Below are positions 2,091 to 12,040 of a DNA stretch of 23,469 nt, piece by piece. Within the stretch, counting starts at the first letter, position 1, and each line of letters opens with the position of its first letter. The DNA lies in the IMG/VR virus record IMGVR_UViG_3300030333_005687, positions 1 to 23,469 of that record; one strand, given 5' to 3'. Origin of the DNA: a virus. A program made the translations under genes and the position numbers. The notes below the pieces were generated by a model. The model was not told the DNA's origin. It made no database searches and saw only the letters and a list, made by a program, of their open reading frames with translations.

Positions 2091-5000
2091 TTATAATGCT
2101 TCTTTAAGTTTCTTTACGAATCCTTTTTCTTTTTGCTTTCCTCCTGCTTTTTCTTTTTCTTTAACTTTAAGGAGAAGGTCTGGGTAATTTGCAGCCATGA
2201 GTTTAAAAGCATCGTCTTTATTATCATTTAATTGCTTATGGATTCTTTTGTGAAACGATTCGATTAATATTGGATCTGGTTTTTGCTTCTTTTTCCATTG
2301 ATTAGCTAAGTCCTTGTAAATTGGAACATCGCCAATTGTTTTGCGATTTAGCTTACCAAATTCTACTGCCCATTCATACCTTTGTTTATAGTTAAGTGGA
2401 ATTTTATATCCACCTACTATTTTGTTTTTCCATCTTTTAGGATGTTTAAAAGGAATCTTGAGATTATACGTTAAAAAATCTGTAGTTGACTCTTTTACTT
2501 TTCTGGAATGCCAAGGTATGAACATTTGTTTTAAGAGTTTTTTATGAAGAGGTTCTGCAACATCATGTAATCGAGCCACATTACCTTCCATATCTAACAC
2601 CGCAGTTGCTCCTGCTAATGGCTTAATTATTCCTGTTTGTGGATCTTGACTAAAAATATTTTTCTGAGCAAAATCCATCTTTAAGTTTTCCCAAACTCTT
2701 AAGCCAAAACTTATTTTTTTAATTTGCTCATCAGTAAGGTTTGGCATAAATGCTCTAGCACCTACGTAACTGGTGGCATTATCTGCTCCTTGTACCAAGG
2801 TGTACTTAGGAATATCCTTTAAAGTAATGTTATCTGAAGTAGCCTTTTGTACATTCCTTCTCATACTTGAAAAAGCACTCTGAGCAGGGTTTAAATAACC
2901 AACATAGTTTGCTACTTCTTTACTAGGATCAAACCCTGGCCCCATAGGATTAAGAGCTTCAAAAGTATCTCTTATTCCTTTCATCATTGATTTATCAAGA
3001 GCAAGAGATCCAAGGGTCCAATAAATTCTGTAGTAGTTTTCTTCTTCAAGTATATTTGCAGTCTCTGAATCCCCCTCCATTCGCATAGAGTTAATTTGAT
3101 TTTCTAGCTCAAGATACTCACCTATAGCACCACCTATAGTAACAAAGGTGATAAAGGGATCTCCTCTACCTATTGGAAAGGTTGTAGTTTCTCCAGTGGT
3201 TTTATTTGTAAAGTCTAAAGTAGGAGGAAGTCTTCTTGATTGGTACACAAAGTCTCTAGAGTAAGTTGAATGTAATCCTCCAGTTTTCAATTGCATTTCT
3301 ATTTCATCATCTTCACCAAAGTTTAATCCTTGGTATGCTCCATATCCCATTGCTAATAAAGTTGATCCAGTTAACCCTCGTGCCATCATTAATTGACGAT
3401 ATCTAGGATCATTAATCATTTTTTTAGGATTTAATCCCATTCTTACAAATGCACTTGGTCCTCTTTCGTAAACACCTTGTTTAAATGCATTAAATAAAGT
3501 TTTAAGAAAAGGATTTTTAGATTGGATGTAGGAGGTAAGCATGTTTGCACCGAGGTTTTTCATAAACCCACGGTCAATATCATTGAATTTGGATCTTCTA
3601 GATTTTTCAAATTTATCCATGAATCCACCAGGCTTAAACTCTTCTTGCAGTAAATGCACATGTGCAATATCTTGGGCAGCAGAATCCAAGTCTTCTGGGA
3701 GATTCTTAATTAAATCACGATACACAGTGTATCTCTCAAGTCCTTTTGCTCCTGACTTTATTGCACGATTCATCGCAAGCATGTGGAGTGCTCGTCTGTA
3801 GAAAAAGACTCTTGAAAATTGATCTCCTGCAAGAAGGGTTCGTCCTGGGGTTCCTATAGCAAACCCTGTGGTATTTGTTAGTCCTCTAATTATTTGATTA
3901 AGAGGTTTTCCAGTATTCTCCATTCCAAAACCAGATGCAGAGAACTGATCTGATAATGCCATTCCCATGAATTTTTCAGATGCTTGTTGATCTGTATTAA
4001 ATGCATTGACCATTTCATGAGCTTGCTTTGGATTCTGTGGTAAATCCCTGAATGCTCTAACACCAGCAGCAAGAGGACTTCTTCCTTGGTAACGGTAGTC
4101 ACTTTGGAACATTTCCCAATAGGCTTGTAATGTCCCAAAATCTCCTGCACGTACTTCATCCCAAGTCATTCCTCCACCTTTTAACCCAATGGCTTTTTCA
4201 AGGGTGTTCTGGGATGCCATTATGTAATCCTCAAGAATTGTCATTTTGTAGAATGCCATGTTAGCAGTGAGGTTCACGGCATCATCAGTAAATGAACTAA
4301 GGAATCCATTGATAGCTATGTACTGGAGAGCATCAAAAGTTTTCTTTACTTTACTTCTACCAAGTACTTTTGCGATCCCTTCAGGATGCTTCATAGATCC
4401 GATCATACTTGCTAATTCTAGGACATTAAGAGCACTGTTATCTGCTCCATCCATTAGCATAGCTTCAATCTGCTTAACTCTTTCTGCACCTTCTTTAGCC
4501 ATTATGTTGTAGGCTTGAAGAGATCTACCAAAGTCTTTTCCGATTCCTCTAATAATCTGAGACATGTTAAGGAACCTAAGTTGTTCTTTAAGAAACTCTG
4601 CTTGCATTTCTTTAGGAACCTCTGGTCCTTCTCCTTTTTTATAAGCAAGGTGCATATCATCGATCTTCTTACCAAATCTTTGGAGTCCACCAGTGATATC
4701 CAATAGGTAATCCCTGACAACCAAAGTCATCACAGGCATACCCTCAGTTGTATTGGCAAGGCTAAGAATAAAAGGATCTATATTTTCGGACCCAAGCATC
4801 TGCTCTATATGTGCTCGTGCGTGTCCTGCAGCAACAATTACTTGGTCATTTGTTAATTTATCATTCTTCCAAGGACCAAGTTTATTTTCATACATAGCAG
4901 CAGCATCATTTAATGCTTGCTTCATTTCATCGGAACTCTCTACATTTCTAAGGTTAATTAACGGAGTATCCTCAAAATTAACTTGTCCAGGTTTGTAGTA

Positions 5001-7076
5001 GTTTCCTAAGTCATTTGGAGTAAACGGTAGTTCTTTTAATGGTTTTTTATTTTTTACACCTTTTTTCCCAGTATTTTTAGGTGTTTCAGAAGGAGCAAAC
5101 TTAGTTTCTGAAGTAGTTTCTCTCCATTCTAAAGGAACGTACTTTTTTTCTTTTCCTGTCTTTTTGTTATACCACTTACCGTCTGTTCTTTGTTCATAAG
5201 TTTTTGTAAAAGTAGCTAATCTATTTGCTTCAATTCCTTCTACATCTGCTTGATTAAGTGGTTTAGGTGCAGATGCTTCATCCCAATAAGTAATCTTACC
5301 TCTAAGTAGTAATCTTTGGTCTACAACTACTGCCTCTTCTGCGGATCTTACGGCAAATCCATTTTCAACTACTCTAGGAAGGTGATCTTTTTTAGGATTA
5401 AAATTAGCTTCTATTCCATTAAATTTAGGTTCAACTTGTTGAATTTCTCCCCTTGCAGTCATCATGGGATGTTTTACTTCTTGTCCAGAAGCTATTTCAA
5501 ATCTTGATTGTTGATTAATCTTAAATTCTACATTTTTAAGAGTAACCGCACGGTCATAACCTAAAGCACCTCCTACACTTTTACCTCCAGTAGCTTTATG
5601 AACAGTAATAAGATTTAATTTTTCTCCATTTTCTCTTTTTAATTTGTCTCCATCTGCAATGGTAGGTCTTGCTTCAACTACAGTTCCTTGCTCTATATCT
5701 CTATTAGCAGTTAACTTAGATTGTATTTTAAGAGGAAACTTATAAGTAAGTATTTCTTGATCGGTAAGAGTAGTTTCTTTAGGTAAATCTACTTTTTTAA
5801 TAGCCTTTGGTTTAGGAATATTTTCAGTAAGTACTTCTTCTCCTGCTTCTGACTTAGGATCTACTTCATCCAAGGCTTGTTTTAATCTAGTAAAAGGAGT
5901 GTCATTTTTAGGTATTACTCGATCCTCTGGTTTCTTAGGATAAAGATCTTTAAACTCATCTGTTACGTTTTTCCAGAATGATCCTACTCCTTTCTCAAGA
6001 TTATTCATTTGAAACCTGAGAAGTTCTTTTTCCTCATCAGATCTTTTAAGTACACCAAAGTACTCATCAAAGAATTTAAAAGCTTCTGTACCGTATTTAA
6101 CGATAAATCTAGCAAAGGATTCTCCTATAACTCCTTCAAATAAACCGTTAGATGCCTGTCTGATAAGTCTTTCAAATTCGTTGCTACTTTTGGCAACCCT
6201 AAGTCCTGCTACGGATTCCTCAGATGCACCCATGCCAACCATTGCATCTGCGATAAGATTGTTAAACTGGGGTAATACTTGGTTTTCTTCTTGACCAATA
6301 AGTGTAGATCCAGCAGCAGTACTCGCTAAAGTTTTGATACCACTTACTGCATCATCAAAGTACTTCACTTGTTTAAGAGCAGCACTACCAAGGAGATACT
6401 CAGCAGTTCCTACTCCAACATCTGCCATGAGTTGAGTGCCTAGACCTTTGGGTTGATATCCTGAACCTACATCTGCATCTTCAAAGAATTCTTGATCTAT
6501 GTCACTAGGAGGAATAGTTTCACCAATAGGTGCAATACTGACTGCATAACCATTTTCATCCTTGGTTATACTCATACCAGCAGTAAACAACATGGTTTCT
6601 ATAGCATTGTTTATAGGAGTCTTAACGGTGTTATAAAGACCTTCTACAACTCTTTCAGGTACTGTTTCTACAAGAGTTCTTCCAGTGTCAATAGTACTAT
6701 TAAAAAGACTCTTGATTGTACCGTATGCACCATCACTGATTAGTTCTCCGATGGATTTTTCTGGTTTGTCTGATTCTGCACGTTTCTGAAAAAGATAGAT
6801 AAGTTTGTCAATTTCTGGATCATCTGTTTTATTTTTTACTTCCATCCATATAGGAAGCATTTGCATAGCTGATTTACCATGATGTTCTGAACCTTCGCTA
6901 AACATTCCTGTTTGTGTATCAAATTGCCTAAATAAAGCATCAGACACTGATTCATCAATTTCTGGAGCTATTCTTTCGGTATTACGAGGTTTGTTAAAAT
7001 CTTCCTCGTTTTGCTTTGTTTCTACTAAAGGTTCTTCCGTAGGTTCTTCAATAGGTTGTTCAACCAAATCAGTCAT
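2091..7076 (-). CDS. Internal virion (ejection) protein, T7 gp16-like, enlarged
   Basis: A 1661-residue protein, the largest in the window, in the gp16 position after gp14 and gp15. In T7, gp16 (1318 residues) sits in the core above the portal and is ejected to form the trans-envelope DNA channel. Residues about 700-1661 carry the family-like body, including the 'TTGFAIGTPGRTLLAGDQFS' region at 1069-1088, an Arg/aromatic 'VFFYRRALHMLAMNRA' helix, and a hydrophobic segment near 1230-1250. The N-terminus is acidic (residues 1-45). I see no intact lytic transglycosylase motif where T7 gp16 has one. Residues about 376-690 look like an inserted module between Lys/Pro/Glu-rich linkers. The C-terminus is strongly basic. 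Assignment rests on position, size and composition more than on residue identity. Confidence 0.85.
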   Translation of the reverse strand: MTDLVEQPIEEPTEEPLVETKQNEEDFNKPRNTERIAPEIDESVSDALFRQFDTQTGMFSEGSEHHGKSAMQMLPIWMEVKNKTDDPEIDKLIYLFQKRAESDKPEKSIGELISDGAYGTIKSLFNSTIDTGRTLVETVPERVVEGLYNTVKTPINNAIETMLFTAGMSITKDENGYAVSIAPIGETIPPSDIDQEFFEDADVGSGYQPKGLGTQLMADVGVGTAEYLLGSAALKQVKYFDDAVSGIKTLASTAAGSTLIGQEENQVLPQFNNLIADAMVGMGASEESVAGLRVAKSSNEFERLIRQASNGLFEGVIGESFARFIVKYGTEAFKFFDEYFGVLKRSDEEKELLRFQMNNLEKGVGSFWKNVTDEFKDLYPKKPEDRVIPKNDTPFTRLKQALDEVDPKSEAGEEVLTENIPKPKAIKKVDLPKETTLTDQEILTYKFPLKIQSKLTANRDIEQGTVVEARPTIADGDKLKRENGEKLNLITVHKATGGKSVGGALGYDRAVTLKNVEFKINQQSRFEIASGQEVKHPMMTARGEIQQVEPKFNGIEANFNPKKDHLPRVVENGFAVRSAEEAVVVDQRLLLRGKITYWDEASAPKPLNQADVEGIEANRLATFTKTYEQRTDGKWYNKKTGKEKKYVPLEWRETTSETKFAPSETPKNTGKKGVKNKKPLKELPFTPNDLGNYYKPGQVNFEDTPLINLRNVESSDEMKQALNDAAAMYENKLGPWKNDKLTNDQVIVAAGHARAHIEQMLGSENIDPFILSLANTTEGMPVMTLVVRDYLLDITGGLQRFGKKIDDMHLAYKKGEGPEVPKEMQAEFLKEQLRFLNMSQIIRGIGKDFGRSLQAYNIMAKEGAERVKQIEAMLMDGADNSALNVLELASMIGSMKHPEGIAKVLGRSKVKKTFDALQYIAINGFLSSFTDDAVNLTANMAFYKMTILEDYIMASQNTLEKAIGLKGGGMTWDEVRAGDFGTLQAYWEMFQSDYRYQGRSPLAAGVRAFRDLPQNPKQAHEMVNAFNTDQQASEKFMGMALSDQFSASGFGMENTGKPLNQIIRGLTNTTGFAIGTPGRTLLAGDQFSRVFFYRRALHMLAMNRAIKSGAKGLERYTVYRDLIKNLPEDLDSAAQDIAHVHLLQEEFKPGGFMDKFEKSRRSKFNDIDRGFMKNLGANMLTSYIQSKNPFLKTLFNAFKQGVYERGPSAFVRMGLNPKKMINDPRYRQLMMARGLTGSTLLAMGYGAYQGLNFGEDDEIEMQLKTGGLHSTYSRDFVYQSRRLPPTLDFTNKTTGETTTFPIGRGDPFITFVTIGGAIGEYLELENQINSMRMEGDSETANILEEENYYRIYWTLGSLALDKSMMKGIRDTFEALNPMGPGFDPSKEVANYVGYLNPAQSAFSSMRRNVQKATSDNITLKDIPKYTLVQGADNATSYVGARAFMPNLTDEQIKKISFGLRVWENLKMDFAQKNIFSQDPQTGIIKPLAGATAVLDMEGNVARLHDVAEPLHKKLLKQMFIPWHSRKVKESTTDFLTYNLKIPFKHPKRWKNKIVGGYKIPLNYKQRYEWAVEFGKLNRKTIGDVPIYKDLANQWKKKQKPDPILIESFHKRIHKQLNDNKDDAFKLMAANYPDLLLKVKEKEKAGGKQKEKGFVKKLKEAL

Positions 7077-7079
7077 ATT

Positions 7080-10000
7080 CTATTCTGGTAAAAGATTATA
7101 TGCAGGTTGAGTGTTAGTTTTTGGCTTAAAAAAGCCTTGACCAATAAAATCATCAGCAAGTTCTGAATTAGTTTTTGTTTTGTTGTCGCTTTTTTCTGGT
7201 TTTTTTATTCTTTCACTCGTTACTTCTGTAAATGATAATGCACTTTTTTTAGCATTTATCCAATCTTGAACAACTGGATCTTCGTTTTGAGTAAGAAGTT
7301 TTTTAATTTTTAAATCTACTTGATCTCTTCTGTATTGTGGATCATTGTAAAATTTAGGGTATACTTGTGGATTTTCTAGTCTATCTTGAATCCAATCTTC
7401 ATATTCCTCTGTTACAGAAACAAAAGCTTTAAAAATTGATTCTTCATAATTTGGACTTATTAAATCTGGGTCAATTTTAAAAGCCTTTCTAATTCTTTGT
7501 CTTCCTCGATTTATTGGTTCTATGCTTCCCTTTGAAATAGGAAACATAGGTTTACGTTTGCTTCTTAATCTTCGCATTAATTTGTCACGAGATGATTCAG
7601 TAAGAGTAAGATCTGTAGCAAACTTTGTGTTGATCTTTGTCTCAAGTAATGACACTTCTTCAACTTTGGAACTTTGATTTATTAAGTCAATAGCTTCATC
7701 TATTTCAATGTATACAGAAGGATCAGTTTTATTTTGGCTTTTTGCTTCACTAAGCTCATGTCTACGAGCAAAAATACGAGACTGTAGTTTATCGTATGTA
7801 GATTCTCTAAGAATCCTTTTTCTTTTAGATCCTACTTCATCTCCTCCTACTAAGAATAAAAAATCTGCTTCTTCATCTAATTGAGCAAGTAACCCATTGA
7901 AGTCAGGATCTTCTTCTTGTAATCCTTTGTTAATAGAACCAACTATTTGAATAGCTTTTTCTGCATTCGTTACTTCATTTTCTAGTACCGATGCTTGTGC
8001 TCCTTTTCTATCGTTACTTCTTATATCAGAATCAATAGCACTATTAAGAGCACCCATAAATCGAGATGCCATGTTCATCAATTTTTCTCGTTGACCTGAC
8101 TTACCTTTTTTATCTACATCAAGATTAGGAATATTATTAATCATTTTTTGAAGTTTATTCCTAGCTTCTTCAAGATTAGACAAACCCATGTAACTAATCA
8201 TGTCAGTCTGAGTCTTAAAGTAAGTTTTCTGTCTTTGTGGAGCAGCATCAGCATCAGCTTTTTCGTCTATGCTTTTTTGGAAACCCTCAATAAGAGTAAG
8301 TAGTGGTTGTTTATGCTTTTTATCAAGTTGCTTTGCACTAAAGGCATTTACTCTTTTCTTAATAGAAGCTAAATTATTTCTATTCTTTTGATCTACTACA
8401 ATTTCTTCTCTAATTGAAAAGTATTGATCTTGTTGTCGTGCTTCTTCATCTAATTTATCTTGTTCTTTTTCTTTCTCATCCTTTTTTTGAATACCTTTAA
8501 TTCTTTCTTTTTCACCTTTTAAATACCTTTCCCATATCTGTACTTCTTTTTCTCCAATTTTTTGAAATAATGATGCACGTTTTGATTCTGCTATATCAGC
8601 TACTGCAACTTTACCTCTGAATGTCTGAAGTTTACCAAAGTTTACAATGGTATCTCCCTGCCATAAGCTAGAAAGTGTAGAGTAGTTATCTGCTTGTCTT
8701 TCTTTTTTATCTACTTCTTGTTGAGCATTCCTAGTTTTAATTGCTAACCGTTTCAGTTCACCTGCTTTATCTCCTAGTTTTTTATTACTACCTAGCGAAC
8801 TAATAATATTATCTAGTTCAGATACATTATTTCTATTAGCATCTATTTTATTCCATTGCTTATCGTATTCTTTTCTTTGGTTAAGTTTAAGTTCCCTACT
8901 TGCTATTTTTTGTAGGTGTTTACCTATTTTTCCTATTTGTACTATTCGGTCACTAGGCTTAAGCTTGTTAAGTTCTTCACCTTCTAATAATTCATTAAGA
9001 CCGTTCTTTTTTTCTACAAAGTTTTCATCAGTATCTAGAGGTTCTAATGATTCAACTTTTGCAGTGACATTAGCGTTTTCAATTTTAAATGTGTTTTCTT
9101 CTTTTTCTTTTCTTTTGGTTTCAAGTTTATTCCTTAGACTTACTAAAGAATCTACAACTTGTTTTTTTTGAGACATGTAGTTTTTTGGCCCCATTCTATA
9201 AAGCCAAGTATCATTGGTTTTTATAGCGTGAGATTGTATTTGCCTACCGTCACCTTCAGTTAAGTTTAATAGAAGAGTTTCGTATGCAGATATTTTTTTA
9301 GAAATTTCAGGAATTGTATCCTCTTTAAATAATTCAAGGCTTGTCCTTTTTCTATCAAAATCTATTATTCCACTTTCATATCTTTTCTTTTCTCGTTCTT
9401 CTTTATTCTTCTTTCTTTGTTCTTCGTTTTGTTTTTGAATTTTATCAAATGGATCTTTTACAAGATCTTTGTACATATTCCATACATTAATTTTTTCACC
9501 TTTAAGATTTAACTCTTTATCCCTAAAGATACTATTATATATTTCTTTAAGTTTTGCTTCGTTTGTAGGGAAACCTTCAGTACCTTCAGCATGTTCTAAA
9601 AGTATTTGCTCTACTTTAGCTACACTTTCTTTAACTGCTCTTTGTTCTTCTTCACTTAAAAAAGGTGCTGGTTTATCTAGTTCTTTTAATCTTCTTTCAT
9701 AATCTTCTTCTGCTCTTTCTAAAATATCAGTACCTTCTTTAGTTTGGGCAAACTTTATCCTAAACTCTTCATTCCCAAAAGTTTCTTCACCTAAAAGCAT
9801 TAAGTCTTCAAAATCTCCAGAAATTATTCTTGCTTCAGTTTCTACAATTTCCTCTCTTAATGCTTTATTAATTTTATCTGTTTCTATATCTTTATCAGAT
9901 TTAGCTACTCTTTCTTCTTCTTTCCTAAGAGATTCTTGAATATCAAATAGTTGATTTCGGGTTTCTTGGAACTTAGGGTTACTCGTGGATATCTTAGGTA

Positions 10001-10907
10001 ACCCTGCTACTGGAGTATCAATCCAATCTAATGATCTAAACAATTCGTCATCTGAGGTTATTCCAGGACGGTTTGCTCTTATCATGATGTTATCTAGGTA
10101 CTCTGTATCATACTGAGTGATGTTGTGTACACGTATTGGTGTACCTTTTTTATCGGGATTTAAATTAAGGTTTGATTCTCTGTATTGAATGTAATCAGCA
10201 TGACTTTTAGGATAACCAGTGGTTTCTAAGCCAGTGTCAATGTTATGCCTAAGACGTTGTTTATGAATGTTTTCTTCTGCATCTACGTAAACTTTTGCAC
10301 TAGCAATGTGTAGTGCATTCATACCTTGTTGAAGGTTGATTACATCACTAAACTCTTCACTTATTCCAGCAGTACTATTCTGTCTTTCGGCATTAATTCT
10401 AATAGAAAAATAAGTTTCCCAAGGTATTCCTGGTTCTTCTGGACCTAAAGCACTTCTATAGGCTTTGTAATTTTCCCATTCTTTTGTTGCTATTTCATCT
10501 GCACGAGTCTTTAGCCTTTGGTTCTCATAGCCAATCCTAAGTTCATGCCCTTTTCTCATAGCAAAATGGACAACTCTGGGATGGTATTGTCCTGCTTTTA
10601 ACGCTTCATATAGTCCTTCCCTACCGTACCGTTGTGCAAGTGATTCTCCTTGGATCTTAAATTCATCTTCTTGTCGCTTTTTTGCTTTTATTTCTTCTTC
10701 ACGTTTCCTTAATTCTTCTGCTTGATCGTATTTAAACTTTGCACCAAATGCTCCTGCAAATGCAGTACTCATCTGAGACAGTGCTTTACCGATAGCTTGG
10801 GACCGTTGAGCACTAGGATCTTGTTTTACAGTAGGAGAAGATACAGATAAACCTCTAGATAGTGATAGAGGATTAAGCCTACTTTGGGATATTGGTTGTT
10901 CAGACAT
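7080..10907 (-). CDS. Internal virion (ejection) protein, T7 gp15-like, coiled-coil rich
   Basis: A 1275-residue, highly charged protein rich in Lys and Glu, with long predicted helices and coiled coils (for example around residues 60-90, 320-345, 505-525 and 790-830). T7 gp15 (747 residues) builds the middle ring of the internal core and is ejected with gp14 and gp16. The N-terminal layout agrees with T7: a Ser/Gln-rich start, an Ala/Gly helix (AIGKALSQMSTAFAGAFGAK), a charged helix, then 'KAGQYHPRVVHFAMRKGHEL', which resembles the T7 segment 'GTLLYQDDPYAMEALRVKTG'. It is about 70 percent longer than the T7 protein; the extra length is mostly charged helix. The region is visibly more AT-rich than the head genes. 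The gp14 stop and this ATG are two bases apart. Confidence 0.82.
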   Translation of the reverse strand: MSEQPISQSRLNPLSLSRGLSVSSPTVKQDPSAQRSQAIGKALSQMSTAFAGAFGAKFKYDQAEELRKREEEIKAKKRQEDEFKIQGESLAQRYGREGLYEALKAGQYHPRVVHFAMRKGHELRIGYENQRLKTRADEIATKEWENYKAYRSALGPEEPGIPWETYFSIRINAERQNSTAGISEEFSDVINLQQGMNALHIASAKVYVDAEENIHKQRLRHNIDTGLETTGYPKSHADYIQYRESNLNLNPDKKGTPIRVHNITQYDTEYLDNIMIRANRPGITSDDELFRSLDWIDTPVAGLPKISTSNPKFQETRNQLFDIQESLRKEEERVAKSDKDIETDKINKALREEIVETEARIISGDFEDLMLLGEETFGNEEFRIKFAQTKEGTDILERAEEDYERRLKELDKPAPFLSEEEQRAVKESVAKVEQILLEHAEGTEGFPTNEAKLKEIYNSIFRDKELNLKGEKINVWNMYKDLVKDPFDKIQKQNEEQRKKNKEEREKKRYESGIIDFDRKRTSLELFKEDTIPEISKKISAYETLLLNLTEGDGRQIQSHAIKTNDTWLYRMGPKNYMSQKKQVVDSLVSLRNKLETKRKEKEENTFKIENANVTAKVESLEPLDTDENFVEKKNGLNELLEGEELNKLKPSDRIVQIGKIGKHLQKIASRELKLNQRKEYDKQWNKIDANRNNVSELDNIISSLGSNKKLGDKAGELKRLAIKTRNAQQEVDKKERQADNYSTLSSLWQGDTIVNFGKLQTFRGKVAVADIAESKRASLFQKIGEKEVQIWERYLKGEKERIKGIQKKDEKEKEQDKLDEEARQQDQYFSIREEIVVDQKNRNNLASIKKRVNAFSAKQLDKKHKQPLLTLIEGFQKSIDEKADADAAPQRQKTYFKTQTDMISYMGLSNLEEARNKLQKMINNIPNLDVDKKGKSGQREKLMNMASRFMGALNSAIDSDIRSNDRKGAQASVLENEVTNAEKAIQIVGSINKGLQEEDPDFNGLLAQLDEEADFLFLVGGDEVGSKRKRILRESTYDKLQSRIFARRHELSEAKSQNKTDPSVYIEIDEAIDLINQSSKVEEVSLLETKINTKFATDLTLTESSRDKLMRRLRSKRKPMFPISKGSIEPINRGRQRIRKAFKIDPDLISPNYEESIFKAFVSVTEEYEDWIQDRLENPQVYPKFYNDPQYRRDQVDLKIKKLLTQNEDPVVQDWINAKKSALSFTEVTSERIKKPEKSDNKTKTNSELADDFIGQGFFKPKTNTQPAYNLLPE

Positions 10908-10909
10908 AA

Positions 10910-11560
10910 TTATTTATACCCAAATGGATTCCCTACATTAGTTGGGGATGAAGATGTAGTCTTTTTAGTTGTTTTATTGTCACTTGGATTTTGATAACTC
11001 TTCATTTTGTAGTAAGTTTCTATTCCTCCTAATGTTGTATTTCCTGCACCTAATAGGTAAGACATGCTATCTGGACCACTCATAAACTGAGTAGATTCTA
11101 TTTGTTGAATAGCTTGGAATCTTGCAGTGTTCATATTCTGTTTAATACTTTGCTCTGCAAAATGCTTGTTTTCTTCTTTTACTGCTAACTCCTCTTTTAT
11201 AGCATCATCAGTTCTAAGGAACTGTCCTTGGACTTTCCTAGAAACAAGATCAGAAGATTGTCCACTACGTTTTTCTGATGCTACCCTCTCAGATGCTTCA
11301 GCTTCTATACTGTTAATGTGATTCTGTAGTTGTTGTGCGTTTGCAACATCGATATCCCTTTGGTGTGCTCTTTCTAAGTTCTGTTTTTCTTGAGCACCTA
11401 CACCATAGGAAAACAAAAGCTGATCTTTTGTCCTAGCATCTGCTCTTTCTTTTCTTCTGTTATATTCTTCTGCTTGTTCTTTTTGAGCTTTAGCTTGGTA
11501 GTACGAACCAACTAAACCTATGCCTACAGAAGTTATTGCTATTGCAGCAGGATTACACAT
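10910..11560 (-). CDS. Internal virion protein, T7 gp14-like
   Basis: A 216-residue protein starting MCNPAAIAITSVGIGLVGSY, followed by a long polar helix rich in Ala, Gln and Glu (residues about 25-140), a 'SGPDSMSYLLGAG' segment near 160-172, and a Ser/Thr/Lys-rich tail ending NPFGYK. T7 gp14 (196 residues) has the same plan: a Met-Cys start, a small-residue hydrophobic N-terminus, a long helix and a basic tail. In T7 it is part of the internal core and ends up in the outer membrane after ejection. Size, order between gp13 and gp15, and the N-terminus all fit. No strong ribosome binding site is present; the gene starts six bases after the gp13-like stop. Confidence 0.85.
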   Translation of the reverse strand: MCNPAAIAITSVGIGLVGSYYQAKAQKEQAEEYNRRKERADARTKDQLLFSYGVGAQEKQNLERAHQRDIDVANAQQLQNHINSIEAEASERVASEKRSGQSSDLVSRKVQGQFLRTDDAIKEELAVKEENKHFAEQSIKQNMNTARFQAIQQIESTQFMSGPDSMSYLLGAGNTTLGGIETYYKMKSYQNPSDNKTTKKTTSSSPTNVGNPFGYK

Positions 11561-11566
11561 AATTCT

Positions 11567-12040
11567 TTATAGTCTTACAAATTCCCAAAACGGTCTACCT
11601 TCGTATCCGTAGTTTTCTATTAATCTTGTGAAACTAAAACCAAGATGTCTTAACCATTGTATTGAAGTATCGTTCCTTTTGTCTACGTAATTACACAATA
11701 ATGGGTACTTACTATTCATATCCATAACCCACTGTTTACACGCTTTGTAAAAGTGTTTCTTGTGTTTATTCTTAAAGTTATCAAAGGCATCACTTCCGAG
11801 CATCCAAGGTGATCCTGTGTATGAGTTAATAGATGCAACTCCACACATCCCGATCAAATTTTTTTCCCAAAATATGCTATAACATACATCAGAACATTCC
11901 CTTGATTTAAGAAGAGAAGTAAGAGGATCATGACCGCTACTTGCCATGACTTCCTGCTTATCGACTTCTTTCATAAATGGAGCTAAATCATGACAGTCCT
12001 GCTCCGTACTATTGTCACATAACCCTAAGTAATACTTCAT
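11567..12040 (-). CDS. T7 gp13-like virion protein with GNAT-type fold
   Basis: A 157-residue protein. Residues about 113-153, with 'LLCNYVDKRNDTSIQWLRHL' followed by GFSFTRL and ending RPFWEFVRL, line up with the C-terminus of T7 gp13 ('LWNYVWVGNKSHIRFLKTIG'). In T7, gp13 is needed for assembly of the internal core. The 'N-x-x-S-I-x-W-L-x-x-L-G-F' pattern is also typical of the last part of GNAT acetyltransferases, but I do not see the acetyl-CoA-binding 'Q/R-x-x-G-x-G/A' loop, so catalytic activity is doubtful. Start and stop overlap the gp12 stop by four bases (ATGA), suggesting coupled translation. Some automatic annotations would call this an acetyltransferase. Confidence 0.75.
   Translation of the reverse strand: MKYYLGLCDNSTEQDCHDLAPFMKEVDKQEVMASSGHDPLTSLLKSRECSDVCYSIFWEKNLIGMCGVASINSYTGSPWMLGSDAFDNFKNKHKKHFYKACKQWVMDMNSKYPLLCNYVDKRNDTSIQWLRHLGFSFTRLIENYGYEGRPFWEFVRL

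Follow-up and report, generated by a model that had tools for sequence, protein, structure and literature searches.

Gp16 of bacteriophage T7 is ejected during infection; its N-terminal part is periplasmic, and gp16-C (residues 411-1118) has been placed in the cytoplasm (PMC8954989). Polyvalent proteins are also proposed to enter the host with the phage DNA, and to have been built up from solo domains (Iyer et al. 2017, PMC5512222). One family of small phage proteins, PF25735/phrog_586 (the "mycobacteriophage L5 gp82" family), consists in part of free proteins such as Mycobacterium phage RedRock gp89 (117 aa). The locus described here touches on all three. It encodes a gp16-like protein with an inserted domain whose core is, by profile comparison, like these solo proteins in sequence family and length; unlike them, the domain is divergent and embedded in a gp16-like protein.

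The window is the whole stretch of viral DNA that we analyzed, 23,469 nucleotides of a marine T7-like phage (IMG/VR record IMGVR_UViG_3300030333_005687, positions 1 to 23,469). Its gene order is portal, scaffold, capsid, tail A, tail B, GNAT-like, gp14, gp15, gp16 and tail fibre, identical to that of Pelagibacter phage HTVC031P. The internal virion protein genes are as follows:

10910-11560, minus strand: gp14-like internal virion protein, 216 aa (PF24072 T7_gp14, E 3.1e-13, Pfam; phrog_805, internal virion protein)
7080-10907, minus strand: gp15-like internal core protein, 1275 aa, assigned by position only
2091-7076, minus strand: gp16-like ejection (internal virion) protein that carries the module, 1661 aa, assigned by synteny, the T7_gp14 neighbour and weak collinearity with HTVC011P
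2676-4898, minus strand: gp16 backbone, residues 727-1467, collinear with residues 367-1087 of HTVC011P gp16

Lying after gp14 and gp15 and before the tail fibre, the 1661-aa open reading frame (ORF) is, by gene position, a gp16-like ejection protein. It shares gene position and size class with T7 gp16 and with the pelagiphage internal virion protein D. Residues 727-1467 match residues 367-1087 of the HTVC011P "internal virion protein D" weakly, with support from synteny (hhalign E 0.0018; hmmsearch E 2.4e-5). T7 gp16 itself was not alignable (hhalign E 0.4), and the PDB likewise gave no gp16 match. As in the original prediction, no lytic transglycosylase was found; Pfam gave no match to one anywhere in the protein. 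The P22 and Sf6 counterparts also lack this domain (PMC8954989), so it does not define the wider gp16-like class. We therefore call the protein gp16-like rather than a member of the T7 gp16 family. An NCBIfam profile search with the protein gave nothing, tblastn with the whole gp16 found no close relatives in named phages, and a relationship of its C terminus to LPD38 was rejected (hhalign E 0.19).

Two neighbouring genes also drew our attention. The gp15-like protein (7080-10907, minus strand) is unusually long and charged, at 1275 aa versus 747 in T7, and has no family match in Pfam-type or PHROGs profile searches. An acetyltransferase-like gene (11567-12040, minus strand) lies between tail tube B and gp14; it looks conserved in the group, as the gene at the equivalent position in S28C10 is annotated as a putative acetyltransferase.

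The original prediction described an inserted module at 5007-5951 on the minus strand and correctly gave it as residues 376-690 of the 1661-aa ORF. We compared the protein with relatives drawn from 80 loci encoding tail tube B relatives. A sister phage (L004, on the same contig as L001) encodes a gp16 that is 92% identical and contains the module. The more distant orthologue in L007 (1511 aa, 49% identical) matches window residues 28-446 and 605-1657 with only a short spacer between, so that both flanks are retained and the module is absent. Residues ~406-605 are thus a discrete insertion, and the region is not collinear in all relatives. The features in and around the insertion are:

5757-5963, minus strand: N-side Lys/Pro/Glu-rich linker, residues 372-440 (composition)
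5262-5861, minus strand: inserted module, residues ~406-605, missing from the L007 orthologue; edges approximate (protein alignment at 49% identity)
5286-5681, minus strand: predicted folded core, residues 466-597 (AlphaFold2 model)
5313-5594, minus strand: match to PF25735 Phage_L5_gp82, residues 495-588 (E 9e-5, 22.8 bits; cut-off 27)
5112-5264, minus strand: helix and WYNKKTGKE hairpin, residues 605-655, gp16 backbone outside the module (conserved in L007)
5007-5114, minus strand: C-side Lys/Pro-rich linker, residues 655-690 (composition)

The separable unit that had been predicted therefore stands, trimmed to residues ~406-605 with a core at ~466-597. The DGKWYNKKTGKEKKYVP hairpin, which had been counted as part of the module, is conserved in L007 together with the preceding helix (residues 605-655); because the hairpin (DGKWYNKKTGKE) is kept in L007, we assign it to the gp16 backbone. 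The flanking linkers are Lys/Pro/Glu-rich as described: K/P/E content is 39% in residues 372-440 and 44% in residues 655-690, compared to 21% in the whole protein, and both linkers fall within the top ~3% of equal-sized windows. T7 gp16, at 1318 aa, is indeed shorter, by 343 residues, of which the module explains only ~150-200. Base composition of the module (GC 34.4%, versus 36.3% for the gene) was uninformative as a sign of foreign origin.

A second gp16-like lineage revealed the same kind of difference. The L074 gene has 660 extra nucleotides, in frame, that hold the module and are absent from L075; the two genes are 97.7% identical over ORF nucleotides 1-1044 and 98.9% identical beyond the insertion. 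The block is therefore present or absent as a unit in two cases, as had been anticipated. L105 shares the module, but the adjoining segment differs, and the cassette site seems to exchange neighbouring segments too. This L105 segment (L105:4442-10390, residues ~574-766; VFHETSLNNARSLI...FYVSDNIDLALGQ...YVIELDP) follows the module and resembles by eye an ADP-ribosyltransferase-like domain, with no Pfam match. No PF25735 member was detected in the T7, HTVC031P, HTVC011P or S28C10 records, which in this respect differ from the window, or in the L007 and L075 contigs, both of which are fragments.

Between the window and its sister L004, the modules are about 86-87% identical, with a dN/dS of 0.15, and are under purifying selection. 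Within gp16, synonymous divergence reaches its maximum in the module; since this level is matched by several other genes of the two phages, the peak supports recombination only weakly. Along the two contigs, dS is ~0.17-0.23 for capsid, gp15 and gp16 but 0.44-0.58 for portal, scaffold, tail tube, GNAT and gp14, and this mosaic points to recombination between lineages.

The module core (residues 495-588) is, on profile evidence, a divergent member of PF25735/phrog_586. The window copy scores 22.8 bits against PF25735 (E 9e-5, Pfam), below the curated cut-off of 27 bits; the sister contig (27.8 bits) and L074 (27.2-27.3 bits) exceed it. The match to phrog_586 has an E of 0.016 (PHROGs). In profile-profile comparison, the window pair matched the family members fused to large proteins (47 other members) with E 2.6e-11 and 97% probability, while the best of 20 column-shuffled controls against the same fused family gave E 0.0027. 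Five solo members matched the fused family with E 5.3e-10, and the window pair matched the five solo members with E 6.6e-5 (64%). These comparisons support homology of the window module to PF25735, a family that, judged from sequence, has three forms: the window form, the large-protein (fused) form and a solo form of about 117-135 aa.

The fused form carries the motif RLDIPAY..W..H..QVGMDP.RH..FYD..GPLV. In the window copy, most of the residues conserved in the fused form (W, QVG, FYD) are lost, and the positions common to all three forms are K535, G543 and P561, and nearly G502 and A579. We found no PF25735 member with a known function. The literature on L5 gp82 was rejected as a functional clue, as the papers concern gp82 of other phages or only L5 genes 77-79. 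The family to which the module belongs is known but uncharacterised, and we found no literature description of the architecture seen here (LPD1-LPD40 of Iyer et al. lie outside this comparison).

AlphaFold2 prediction of window residues 440-660, using a 49-sequence alignment, gave a pLDDT of 83.5 and a pTM of 0.75; the L074 cassette gave 89.9 and 0.86. Predicted strands span residues 466-471, 490-494, 504-508, 510-520, 539-546, 555-558, 575-585 and 588-597, with a helix at 522-529. The module is thus confidently predicted to fold as a separate alpha+beta domain between the linkers. The compact domain of the original prediction is borne out, as a mixed alpha+beta rather than a purely beta fold, and the region is not predicted to be disordered. 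Its fold had been called unrecognised; a sequence family does exist, but no solved structure resembles the fold, as Foldseek searches of the PDB with both models yielded no match (best E 0.98 and 0.15). Sequence searches against solved structures gave only nanobody and RadA matches, which we judged spurious.

Against predicted viral structures, Foldseek returned 16 matches with E <= 0.001, mostly large polyvalent-type proteins, with names that include ART-PolyVal, PcfJ-like, tail lysozyme, Zeta toxin and LT_GEWL, together with short solo proteins. The solo matches include proteins of Bacillus phage Staley (135 aa, E 2.1e-5, TMt 0.72) and Streptomyces phage Muntaha (114 aa, E 3.3e-4, TMt 0.64). 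In these comparisons, predicted structure against predicted structure, the module has the same fold as solo members.

These data bear on whether the module could be an enzyme delivered to the host, as the many conserved polar positions shared by the fused relatives (RLDIPxY, W, H, Q, DPxRH, FYD) might suggest. Most of these positions are changed in the window and solo members, leaving essentially K535, G543 and P561 in common, and neither model had a structural match to any enzyme in the PDB. A conservation pattern with so few shared positions, none catalytic-looking, argues against an enzyme, which we regard as very unlikely. We infer a binding role instead.

Solo members are widespread. Tblastn with two of them matched 925 and 902 of 50,697 phage records, chiefly phages of Mycobacterium, Bacillus, Streptomyces, Roseobacter and Salinibacter; among the matches listed, the proteins are annotated as hypothetical. 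The solo genes we examined belong to small-gene arrays, in several cases close to an end of the genome, and from this position they are probably expressed early. In Bacillus phages the solo gene occurs twice per record; in Goe17, the two copies are 156 kb apart, one at each genome end, as expected for a terminal repeat. Goe17 shares the family Herelleviridae with SPO1, whose terminal region holds host-takeover genes (PMC6873191). We rejected these takeover genes as characterised homologues, since SPO1 has no PF25735 family member.

Mycobacterium phage D29 is a viable lytic phage. Its genome (AF022214) contains only a truncated PF25735 remnant at 45673-45891 on the minus strand, covering profile positions 2-68. 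Lytic growth in the laboratory therefore probably does not require the solo gene. That D29 is viable with this remnant, that relatives (L007, L075) dispense with the module, that flexible linkers lie on both sides and that the window copy is divergent would all fit a passenger or spacer that the structure of gp16 tolerates and that does little there. We consider this quite unlikely, given the low dN/dS of the module and its confidently predicted fold.

The fused members comprise 71 complete ORFs of 302-3130 aa (median 1354 aa). Many of their loci adjoin portal, terminase, coat or tail genes, and the position of the domain within these unrelated large proteins varies widely. The largest (L117:2740-12129, 3130 aa) combines the PF25735 domain with LPD38, ART-PolyVal and DUF7178, and so has the two or more disparate domains of a polyvalent protein. 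In this protein PF25735 (residues 1125-1218) is followed by DUF7178 (1297-1457), which is also present in L088 and hints at a recurrent pairing. Roseobacter phage CRP-9 carries the domain in a portal-adjacent protein and has no solo copy, whereas CRP-345 has a solo copy and a portal-adjacent protein without the module.

The window gp16 likewise lies among late virion genes and appears to have grown by modular accretion, as do polyvalent proteins, in which the PF25735 domain recurs near virion genes. It differs from them in having only one recognised accessory domain and no LPD or ART match. What had been predicted as a cargo-like module is, in these terms, a discrete unit that two separate gp16-like lineages have gained or lost and that shares homology with domains of large polyvalent-type proteins. 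The original reading, in which it could be an enzyme or inhibitor delivered at the first moment of infection, is thereby partly supported.

Another explanation is that the module serves ejection itself, belonging to a gp16 cytoplasmic hub and holding or steering the incoming DNA or adjusting how fast it is ejected. By position the module does fall at the beginning of what would correspond to T7 gp16-C (411-1118), a proposed DNA clamp (PMC8954989). Yet the orthologue in L007 and the near-identical relative of L074 (L075) lack it, the domain is a free protein with no link to ejection in hundreds of phages, and it occupies very different places in unrelated large proteins. We therefore think a role in ejection unlikely.

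We favor a reading in which the module is an accessory polyvalent-type cassette of the L5-gp82 (PF25735) domain family on a gp16-like protein. From gene position and T7 biology, this protein would be injected with the DNA, and the module would leave the capsid together with it. As with the T7 gp16-C hub, the module may then come to rest at the cytoplasmic face of the inner membrane of the host. This placement is plausible because the module comes after the first quarter of the protein, and is by analogy only, since T7 gp16 is not alignable here. There it would act by binding rather than by catalysis, with a host protein or a nucleic acid as the target of defence or takeover. Other phages would deploy the domain as a small, probably early, gene or within larger polyvalent-type proteins. 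The computed basis consists of discreteness, family, confident predicted fold, modular gain and loss, purifying selection and the distribution of solo and fused forms. To the whole reading, in which the ejection protein takes the cassette into the host and the cassette binds a host or defence target, we give an even chance; it is the best available of those weighed, and is not proven.

More tentatively, and less likely than not, PF25735 may be a widespread first-strike domain, used either as an immediate-early small gene or as a swappable cassette preloaded in the virion. If true, a fold unlike solved structures would act on a host target that is still to be discovered and that very different bacteria share. 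A large uncharacterised family, found in about 900 of 50,697 phage records, is tied to proteins that the virion is believed to deliver, and this narrows its possible roles to those with a target present at the very start of infection. Our results also suggest that accessory domains can be exchanged in T7-type ejection proteins, which are usually regarded as serving DNA delivery alone, an idea for which natural pairs with and without the module are available for testing.
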